A stretch of DNA of 64,000 bases from NCBI RefSeq assembly GCF_025118155.1, contig NW_026251400.1, positions 310,001 through 374,000 on the forward strand, read 5' to 3'. The DNA is from Cokeromyces recurvatus. Taxonomy: Eukaryota > Mucoromycota > Mucoromycetes > Mucorales > Mucoraceae. Position 1 is the first letter of the stretch. Every line of letters starts with the position of its first letter. The notes beneath the pieces are model-generated. The model was given only the letters and a program-made list of their open reading frames with translations, did no database searches and was not told the DNA's origin. Positions 59,011-63,878 of the stretch are shown in pieces. Position numbers and translations under genes: made by a program.

Positions 59011-59053
<43 letters not shown>

Positions 59054-59161: not shown

Positions 59162-62100
59162 TTAAAGCTCAATAACAGCTTTACTTTCAATAATGGACAG
59201 CTTTCTAAACTTTTCAAGCAATTCGTACATTGATGAAGACTTCTTTTTCTTTTTACTTTGCTCTGTAGGCTTTTTTTTTTCTTCTTCTTCTTCTTCAATA
59301 GCATGCAACATCTCCGTATTTGTCATCCTAACGAGTTTAGTAGAAGCGAGTTCAATATGTTCAAAATCGACCAATGTCATATAGACCATATGGCGATGAG
59401 CATGTGATTTTCGTAACTTCAAAGATACCTGTACATGATCGAATAAATTAAATTGTATAGGGTTAGGCAAGTCAGTAGAATGAACAGAGATGCTGTTCGG
59501 CATATCGATTTCTATTCTACAATTGGGAATAGTTTCATTTTCATCTAAAAGAAAGAGAAAGAGAGAGAGAGAAAGGTTAAAGATATATTGACAGCCTATT
59601 TTTTATTTATATATGCATCTATTTTTACTACCCTTAGTTTCCTTTCCAGTAATTAAAGACAAAGGAACACTTGGTTCACCATTTTTATCCTTAAGATACA
59701 CTGGCCCCTTTAAACCAAGTCTAAAGAAAAAAGGTTAATTCAATAATTTTGATTTTTTTTTTTAATACACTTTACCTTGGCACAAATACATAGAATCCAT
59801 TTGATCTAATTTCTGAAATAACACCTCTTTCGATAAGTGATGTATCATTAGAAGTCTAAAATGCACAAAGACTATTAAGTTAGTACTCATTTGATTACTT
59901 TTATATATATACATATTTATATACTTTACGTGCTGTAGTACATAAAGACTTTGAAACAATTCTGTGGAATCCTAAGGAAATGTAAATATTCATATATGTC
60001 TATATTAAAAATTGAGATGGATCAAATTACAATCTACTTACTCTTTGAGCAAACTTGGACTCTCTTGATTTTAAATTTAGATTTTCACAAATACTAGCAA
60101 TGGATGCATCTTTAAACATAACAGATCCACGGTCATGATTGTCCTTTATGGCAGTTGGATCCTGAACACATGTAAGTAATTGTCGATGTGCAATGATATC
60201 TGCATATCTACGAATAGGCGACTAGATAGATTCTGTTAGAATATGAAAGATGATACACTTTTTTTTTACTATATACATACTGTAAAGTGAGTATAAAATT
60301 CAAGTGCTAAACCATAATGATAGTATTCATAAGCTGGGTAATGACCAGAAGATATATATCCTGCTTCATTCATGGCTACAGTGGCCATGGTTTTTAATAA
60401 TCTTGCTATTTCAGGATCGTCTTTGCATCCTCTACTAATCTCCTCGAGTGACTGAGCTAATGTTTTATTAGATGAAAAGTCTATTGAAAATCCCTAAATG
60501 AGTCATTTATTAGTCCCATGATACAAAATGATCATTATTATTATTATTATTATTTACTCTGCTTTTTGCTGCTTTCACTAGTCCTTCAAATTGGCTTTTA
60601 GTTGGAGGTGGATGGTGTCTAAGAATGGCAGATTCTTTAAAGCCTTCATAAATTCGTTTACCAACTGATGCATTTGCTAGAATCATAGCTTCTGCTACTA
60701 ATCCATGAATCTCTAAACTATGCTTAGGAAGTAAATAAAGCAAAATTGAAGGGTTAAGATAATATAATAAACTATCTCTATCTCTATTTTCTTTTCTTTA
60801 ATATAAATATATATGTATGCATCTATATTTGTACATTTATAATATAATAAAAGGATATTTATATCAGTGATTTCATGTTGATCTGTAATTTTAAATTTGA
60901 CTTCAGATCCTTCTAACTCTAAAGCACCTTTAGCTAAGCGTCTTTCCTATTAAAAAAAAATAAAAAGGTTAGTATTATCCTCACTTTTTTTTTGTTTTTA
61001 GTTACTCTCATCACACGTAGAACTTCTGCAAGCTTTATAATACATGGTTTTAATTTTTTACATAAAATTGAGTCTAATATAAACTAATTACTAACTGAAC
61101 ATAAAAAAAAGATTGGCTTAATAAATAACAAACCTAAACCAGTTGCAACACTTTTTCCATCTAAAAGTTGTTGCGCTTGTTCATATTCCATTTCACAACT
61201 TGACCTTATAATCGATCTTCCAAACCATGTGTCCAAAATTTGATAATCTTTGTTTAATGTCCAAATAACAGAAACAGCGTAACGATCGACTTTATGTCTT
61301 AAGGAACATACTCTTTCACTGAGTACAGATGGAAGCATATCAAAGCGTCTATCTGCTAAATAAACGGTGGTTCCTCTGAATATAGATAAACATTAATAAT
61401 GAAAAGTAGAATAAGAGGAATAGTTTCTATTTTTTTTTTTTTACCTTGATTTTGCTTCTAGATCAGTGATATAATTTTCTTTTACAAAGTAACTAACATC
61501 TGCAATATGAACACCGAGTTCGATTTTTCCATCGTCTAGTTCTTTTATAGAAAGTGCATCTGGAGAAAGAAGAAAAAGAAAAAGATTCATTTATAATTAC
61601 TTTTTTTTTTGTCTTTCCTTCTATTTTAATAATGTACCATCAATATCTTGACAGTTAGGAGGATCAATACTAAAGACAGTCAAATTTCTCAAATCTCTTC
61701 TTTGAAGTATTTCATCCTATATAATAATAATTAGATGATTACGAATCTATTTAAAAGAAGATAAAGTGGTATAGAATATTACCTTTTCCGGTGTCCATGG
61801 ATTTTCAGTAGTATCGATTGGCATTTCCTTTAATGACATTTCACTAAAACCTTGACTAGCCTGAGATACTGAAATTGAATGTTCAACTAAAATAGCAGAT
61901 ATCTCTGTATCCAATTGATGAATGGGACCTAAAGAACGAACAAAATGGCCATTTGGATATTGTGAATGAATTGGCCTATAAACCAAAAAAAAAAAAAAAA
62001 AAAAAAAGTAGAGTATTAATAGTTAATAATACTATATTCTATGATATGATATGATATTATAGATTACCAATTATCAATACGAACAACTATACGTTGATTT

Positions 62101-63716
62101 TCAATAAGTTTGACATCTTGATATTTTATTCTAATCTTTGGAATAACAGGATCTAACGGAATAGCTAAATGAATTGAACCGCCTATTTCAGAACTATCCT
62201 CTTGAAGTGTAGCCACATAAGATCTCCAATTACGATTTAATACACCTACTACACGTCCTGTTGGCTGAGTTGCTGTAGTTATCGAATTCTTTAATCTATT
62301 CTCTTCATATTCTATACACTAAACATATTAATAAGAAATTCCAAAAAAAAAAAGATGAACATTAAATCTACCATCTTCTGTATTACTCGTATCAAAAGAA
62401 ATATCATTTGAAAGAGTAGTCCAATTAGTTTCAGATAATAACTCTACTACAACTAAATCTCCATGAACTATTCAAAAAGGGTTTAGTTTACAAAAATAAA
62501 TTTCTTTCTTTTCTCCCCCATTTAAGTTTACAAACCTGAGCGATTACGATTTTCATTCCCGATAATTAAAATATCTTTGCCGAGATATCCTGATCCAGTT
62601 ACATAGGCTTGATCTCGATTATCTTTTTTACAACGTAAAATACCAGAATAATAACGACTCGACTTTATACCTATTTCAAGTTCATCGATAGGCTTATACT
62701 GTGTGTGTGTGTATATATGATATATGTTAGTTTTGTAGATGACTTGTATGACTACCTTCTTTATATATACATATATGTATACATACCTCGGTATATCCAT
62801 GAACAGCAGTTGTACTTGATCCATGTGATAGTTTTAAAGATAACCTAATTTTTCCATCCTCATTGTTATCTTCTAAAACAACATCAGCTAAAACATGTAC
62901 AAGATTCTGTAACAAGCTATTATCTTTCCAATACAAGTCCAAATACTCTTTTGTCGTCATCACATTCACATCATTTGTTTCAGCATGGTGTACTTCAGAG
63001 AGTAATATAATCTTCTTTTGGTGATGTAAATGTGCGCTGTACCACCGAGCTAACTGACATAACGCTCTCCAATCACGGTCTGCACTTGTTTCATCTGGCA
63101 TTCTTGCTATCTTTGTATCTTTAAATATTTCATTATAAAACATAACACTCTTTCTTCTCGAGTCATTCATAATTTGACGAAGTTTACGATATGTTTTAAG
63201 TTTATCATGCTGTTGAAGCTATGTAATAAAATACAGTCATTTATTCGTTTGTTTGTTTTATTTATTTATTTATTTATTTATTTATATAAAAAAAAAAAAA
63301 AAGATGAGACATGCTTACATTCATGGTTACTGTTTGACTAAAAATAATACCAGTAACTTCTTCTTGTTCTAAAATTTCTAAATAACGCATAATAACCTAT
63401 TTACAGAGAGGAACACGTTAAAATAAAGTAAATAAATAATAAATCGATAATTTTAATTTTTACTGAAATATCGGGTATAATATAATGGTCTCCACTTAAC
63501 AATGTTTGTTGTTGATCATTTTGACAATGAGAAGGGCATTCTTCTGACAAACAAGGAATGTCGGTGCGTACATATTCTGTAGAAATATGAATTGTTATCT
63601 ATTTGTTGTGTGTATGTGTGTGTGTTTTAATATATAAACATACGTTCTCTAACTAGTTTTATGATGGCATTACTTCTTGTCTTTTTATAAAACGCTCGAT
63701 CTGTTTTAATAACCAT
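59162..63716 (-). CDS. DIS3L: DIS3L-type exosome exoribonuclease (RNase II/R family)
   Basis: 3'-5' exonuclease associated with the cytoplasmic exosome. Twenty exons from 63716 down to 59162 give 1047 aa: 63716-63644, 63576-63464, 63396-63319, 63218-62787, 62698-62536, 62467-62372, 62311-62068, 61975-61783, 61716-61638, 61559-61445, 61375-61134, 61073-61006, 60946-60859, 60730-60558, 60493-60281, 60221-60042, 59971-59930, 59855-59776, 59720-59632, 59544-59162. The N-terminal PIN-like region ([44 protein letters not shown]) matches animal DIS3L, whose PIN is inactive. Cold-shock domains follow ([29 protein letters not shown]), then RNB with all four catalytic Asp in [13 protein letters not shown], and SPIRRYAD. 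The S1 domain and a helical tail end the protein. The 60731-60858 intron is AT-AC with U12 signals. Confidence 0.95.
60731..60858 (-). other. Putative U12-type AT-AC intron in DIS3L
   Basis: 128-nt intron read on the - strand. The donor is ATATCCTTTT exactly at the U12 consensus, and the branch-like element TATCTTAACC (60751-60760) has one mismatch to TCCTTAAC. It ends ...TTTAC. Removing it joins EITDI to [10 protein letters not shown] in phase, which matches animal DIS3L (HDLIPKQPLEVH). No GT-AG intron in the segment gives an open frame. Confidence 0.82.

Positions 63717-63829: not shown

Positions 63830-63878
<49 letters not shown>

Follow-up and report, generated by a model that had tools for sequence, protein, structure and literature searches.

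The DIS3L locus

The window, a 64-kb stretch of the genome of Cokeromyces recurvatus (Mucorales), contains a DIS3L-type exonuclease gene of 20 exons and 19 introns, read on the minus strand and encoding 1047 aa (Table 1). The spliced model is identical to the deposited C. recurvatus protein P0001 (1047/1047 residues). This identity was reached after the acceptor of intron 11 had been set by P0001, which left intron 13 unaffected. The homologue, Pfam and solved-chain searches were queried with an earlier model of 1031 residues, 16 residues short owing to a wrong intron 11 acceptor. The product carries an RNB domain (Pfam, 314.7 bits). Chains of DIS3-like exonuclease 1 stood at the top of the solved-chain search with RRP44 below them, and the deposited name is DIS3-like exonuclease 1-like protein. 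The RNB domain and DIS3L1 as the nearest solved relative place the gene among the DIS3L exonucleases. Eighteen of its 19 introns have GT-AG ends; the exception is intron 13, which begins with ATATCC and ends in AC. A T run (59012-59051) and an A run (63832-63875), each of about 40 bases or more, flank the gene.

Table 1. Features of the DIS3L locus around intron 13 (positions in the window)
Feature	Position	Strand	Evidence
DIS3L-type exonuclease coding region	59162..63716	-	P0001 identity, RNB, DIS3-like exonuclease 1 chains
Coding exon 13, upstream of intron 13, ends ...HEITDI, phase 1	60859..60946	-	gene model
AT-AC intron, 128 nt, phase 1, intron 13 of 19	60731..60858	-	gene model, splice-pair test, P0001
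5' splice site ATATCCTTTT	60849..60858	-	9/9 to U12 consensus; U11 duplex -6.1 kcal/mol
Best branch-site match TATCTTAAC, putative branch A at 60754	60753..60761	-	7/9; weak alone
Possible other branch As within CCCTTCAA, at 15-16 nt from the end	60746..60747	-	5/9 by eye
3' splice site AC, the earliest one 10 nt or more past putative branch A	60731..60732	-	reading of intron
Coding exon 14, downstream of intron 13, PKHSLEIHG...	60558..60730	-	gene model

Splice junction of intron 13

The donor ATATCCTTTT (60858-60849), the motif TATCTTAAC (60761-60753) and the end TTTAC, all named in the original prediction, were confirmed in the sequence, and the 3' boundary reads TTTAC/TTCC at 60731. The AT-AC splice yields a 16-residue junction peptide in phase 1, and P0001 carries the same junction residues. 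Splice pairs were tried with the last exon base at 60890-60791, introns of at least 40 nt and the outer ends of exons 13 and 14 fixed, a range that excludes donors further upstream, such as those of exon 13 skipping. The frame stayed open in 3082 pairs, among them 18 AT-AC, 88 AT-AG, 4 GT-AG, 2 GC-AG and 1 GT-AC. The deposited 15-residue junction peptide came from a single one of these pairs, the AT-AC pair 60858/60731. The claim that no GT-AG alternative stays open was slightly too strong, as four GT-AG pairs do, all from donor 60834; none of the four gives the deposited peptide. Within the range tried, the junction 60858/60731 is forced, and AT-AC termini are found at the sole junction with the deposited protein as its product. 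P0001 requires this junction if its DNA is identical, and if transcripts underlay its annotation, it would be direct evidence for the AT-AC junction. When intron 13 is retained, the frame stops about 50 residues on, inside the RNB domain as placed by the Pfam match. The full-length enzyme therefore depends on removal of the intron.

Donor class and minor spliceosome components

The donor ATATCCTTTT fits the U12-type 5' splice site RTATCCTT and matches the U12 consensus at 9/9 positions; no other intron of DIS3L exceeds 6/9. Its duplex with the 5' end of the genome's own U11 was computed at -6.1 kcal/mol, and those of the other 18 introns at -1.8 or weaker. The 10-mer has a single copy in the window, in intron 13, and 607 copies across the 28-Mb genome. 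The excess over the reversed sequence (607 vs 189) was rejected as evidence for introns, since a first-order estimate (8.5e-6 per site, from DIS3L intron composition) already gives about 470. Of the ten donor/branch pairs found in the window, one is intron 13; five places were set aside after inspection by eye.

Candidates for all four minor snRNAs were found in the same genome, and all match their models end to end. U11 (68.8 bits) and U6atac (63) lie above the Rfam gathering scores; U4atac (52.3 bits) and U12 (44.3 bits) lie below theirs of 53. At the level of candidate snRNA genes, a minor spliceosome is thus encoded alongside the intron. The putative pairing elements are intact, namely AAAAAGG at the 5' end of U11, GAGUAAGGA within U12 and GAAAGGAGAGAA within U6atac. 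PDCD7 was matched above the cut-off (29 bits, over the final 62 of 306 positions), as was a zinc finger of the U11-48K type (zf-U11-48K), a family that also matches in Sulfolobus. SCNM1 had no match in the genome, which is uninformative because that search matched nowhere. The candidate snRNAs presumably act on intron 13.

Branch site and tail of intron 13

For a branch site resembling UCCUUAAC, the best match was TATCTTAAC, 7/9 to TTCCTTAAC, a score that is equalled in 8.3% of random 40-nt tails and also in one GT-AG intron of DIS3L. Its duplex with U12 (-5.5) is exceeded by GT-AG introns of the same gene, down to -7.8. The branch site had been put forward as a hallmark of U12-type introns; the motif is present as described, and with these scores it is weak evidence. 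The assignment to the U12 class comes from the donor, the termini, the minor-spliceosome machinery and the relatives, and the branch site adds no help.

The putative branch A at 60754 lies 23 nt ahead of the last base of the intron, so the original count of about 23 nt was correct. Pyrimidines make up 0.80 of the 20 nt that precede AC. The optimum between U12 branch and 3' splice site is reported as 11-13 nt and a distinct pyrimidine tract as absent, features that are typical and not defining (PMC3584512). Intron 13, with 23 nt and 0.80 pyrimidine, does not show this arrangement.

We propose that U11 would pair with the donor ATATCCTTTT, that U12 would bind the suboptimal branch site near TATCTTAAC, and that U6atac would then replace U11 at the donor. 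The first AC past about 10 nt from the branch would serve as the acceptor, and GAT ATA A would be joined to TT CCT AAG. We infer both the identity of the branch adenosine and the first-AC rule.

DIS3L in related fungi

The best 120 of 7986 homologues were aligned, and the 37 from Mucoromycotina were compared with P0001. At the junction of intron 13, an indel of at least 3 residues was present in eight of the 37 models, and residues were replaced in two more (P0020 and P0025). The remaining 27 models are smooth at this point, which says nothing on the presence of the intron. Among the other fungi in the alignment, 1/41 was damaged here. The damaged models of the 37 numbered 0 to 3 at junctions 4-12 and 14-16; 3, 4 and 5 at junctions 3, 17 and 18; and 14, 11 and 10 at junctions 1, 2 and 19. 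Background positions had a mean of 2.7 damaged models and a maximum of 28. Other junctions and the background reach similar counts, so a tally of damaged models cannot settle the matter by itself.

The telling observation is the residues themselves. DI-NIL[FL] stands at the junction in 4/37 models (P0002 of Benjaminiella, P0020 and P0028 of Apophysomyces, and P0025 of Circinella), and it is the translation of A/ATATCCTT[TC] with the donor left in. The original prediction had suggested a search for the same intron position in other mucoromycetes; in protein models, donor traces turned up in these four, and the smooth models were uninformative. Intron 13 is apparently either translated through or skipped when an annotation pipeline looks for GT-AG ends. 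The AT-AC intron thus offers a reason for the breaks at one spot in 10 of the 37 deposited DIS3L models.

Other AT-AC introns and their spacing

Strict pairs of ATATCCTT...TCCTTRAC were more frequent genome-wide than pairs of the reversed pattern (6 vs 0 and 12 vs 2). The relaxed pattern CTTAAC...AC was not enriched genome-wide (16 vs 13), and pairs with GTATCC, searched at gaps of 25-55 only, were not enriched over the control (1 vs 1). Enrichment of ATATCC...TCCTTRAC and none of GTATCC hints at a bias towards AT-AC in one partial search. At least one open AC splice was possible at each of the 18 strict matches by a loose test, and since it was possible at all of them, openness proves little.

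By homology and reading, 11 of the 18 loci were kept; their donors up to the eighth base and their branch cores were fixed by the search pattern. Pfam matches above the cut-off cross the AT-AC junction in 6/18: prefoldin (L027), importin (L040), DCP2 (L041), LSM12 (L042), VPS11 (L043) and ALG6/8 (L044). For importin-9, DCP2 and ALG6, alignments to solved chains span the junction as well, and no solved structure was matched for VPS11. Weaker matches cross it in a DNA-PKcs-like locus (L039, below the cut-off) and a channel (L048, PDB only). CDC24 (L036) has two below-cut-off domains, one on each side of the junction, and a hydrolase match in L028 lies downstream only. L013 had no homology match in the Pfam and PDB searches and was kept among the 11. 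All 11 (L013, L027, L028, L036, L039, L040, L041, L042, L043, L044 and L048) are probably further AT-AC introns with U12 donors, as read from sequence. L015, L017, L038, L045, L046, L047 and L049 were dropped. L047 and L049 are near-identical, and their match to the intron pattern is probably due to chance; the peptide downstream presumably resembles a mobile-element integrase.

Together with DIS3L, 12 AT-AC introns were assembled by hand, only some of them with strong homology. Their branch-to-end distances were 11, 12, 12, 13, 19, 22, 22, 23, 23, 27, 30 and 40 nt. Each of the 12 ends at the earliest AC that lies 10 nt or more past the branch; the 10-nt limit was set after the introns had been seen and some acceptors were picked by openness, so the first-AC rule is only a proposal. 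The tails of importin-9 (22 nt) and the channel (30 nt, weak homology) are free of A up to the final AC, which leaves no room for a nearer branch A in these two unless the branch is not A. Importin-9 is the strongest case for wide spacing, followed by the channel. The 40 nt of LSM12 is uncertain because of another branch-like motif closer to the end. For LSM12, the deposited C. recurvatus protein (P0121) agrees with the AT-AC splice across the junction, and DILF or NILF stands there in 3/48 homologues (P0139, P0146 and P0159, from Apophysomyces, Lichtheimia and Umbelopsis). The AT-AC intron of LSM12 seems to be conserved in these three genera, whose models read as if the ATATCCTTTT donor had been retained.

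In the AT-AC introns, the pyrimidine fraction was 0.76 in tails and 0.57 in bodies (p = 0.007). The 18 GT-AG introns of DIS3L gave 0.68 in tails vs 0.48 (p = 0.006). A pyrimidine-rich tail was rejected as a U12-specific trait here, being common to these 18 introns.

The 23-nt distance had been named the main weakness of the U12 reading. That judgement needs correcting, as such spacing recurs in other AT-AC introns as assembled here, and that of DIS3L is not odd in this genome. Cokeromyces, and perhaps Mucorales, may have a minor spliceosome that has lost tight spacing, takes the earliest AC more than about 10 nt away (11 to 22, probably 30), tolerates a pyrimidine-rich tail and has more AT-AC than GT-AG introns. 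We regard this wider reading as tentative and its chances as slightly below even; it is weighed down by strong homology across the junction in only some of the 11 introns and by a tail shared with major introns. If loose spacing holds with RNA data, these fungi would provide a natural test of acceptor choice by the minor spliceosome.

Alternative explanations

Intron 13 could be real and AT-AC and still be spliced by the major spliceosome, like the rare U2-type AT-AC introns. CTTAAC in the branch region could double as a U2 branch, and the tail (0.80 pyrimidine) resembles those of the major introns of DIS3L (0.68), one of which equals the 7/9 branch score and several of which form stronger U12 duplexes. 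However, the donor ATATCCTTTT is perfect, no GT-AG intron among the 18 comes near its computed pairing with U11, and the genome holds candidates for all four minor snRNAs. We consider splicing by the major spliceosome improbable. More improbable still is an AT-AC intron that is only apparent, produced by conventional GT-AG splicing or by a misassembly. Four GT-AG pairs keep the frame open, exon 13 skipping lies outside the range tried, and 27/37 models of relatives read smoothly through the junction; but none of the four pairs gives the deposited 15-residue peptide, P0001 needs exactly 60858/60731 if its DNA is identical, and four relatives have a retained donor.

Overall, intron 13 is very probably a genuine U12-type AT-AC intron, removed by the minor spliceosome and lying inside the RNB catalytic domain of DIS3L. 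The 9/9 donor, the P0001 junction, the four minor snRNA candidates and the 4/37 relatives bear out the original prediction on this point.

Comparison with known systems

U12 introns are reported to be without support in Ascomycota and Basidiomycota (PMC10639083). The original prediction overstated the surprise of a fungal U12 intron: the losses are those of these two phyla, and publications since 2006-2010 describe U12 introns from Rhizopus and Phycomyces (PMC2846911, PMC10639083). U12-type introns of the AT-AC and GT-AG subtypes and minor snRNAs were reported in Rhizopus oryzae and Phycomyces blakesleeanus (PMC2846911, main text). The intron described here resembles them in its AT-AC subtype and its occurrence in a related fungus, and differs in species and gene; the words DIS3, exosome and RRP44 are absent from that main text. 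In the open-licence literature, as far as its text was available, no report of DIS3L intron 13 or of loose spacing in Mucorales was found, and the mention found of a DIS3L tie to a minor intron was DIS3L2, in a reference list. Intron 13 is thus an addition to the U12 introns already known from Mucoromycotina; of the two observations, loose spacing is the newer one to follow. U4atac and U12 are reported absent from Apophysomyces (PMC5604411). The donors retained in its protein models suggest that they were missed.

Larger sets of minor introns are described for Rhizophagus and Basidiobolus, with all four snRNAs in Rhizophagus, where the consensus features of the introns follow those of animals and plants closely (PMC10639083, main text, in which DIS3 and Cokeromyces are absent). 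Cokeromyces resembles both in having fungal minor introns; unlike in Rhizophagus, its branch-to-acceptor spacing looks looser. Like the U12-type AT-AC introns of animals and plants, the intron of DIS3L has a ATATCCTTT donor and an AC end, in a genome with candidates for U11, U12, U4atac and U6atac. It differs from them in a poorer branch site, a distance of 23 nt instead of the optimum of 11-13 nt and a pyrimidine-rich tail, where the class typically has no distinct tract (PMC3584512). The genome of this member of Mucorales has AT-AC introns in conserved genes and candidates for every one of the minor snRNAs.
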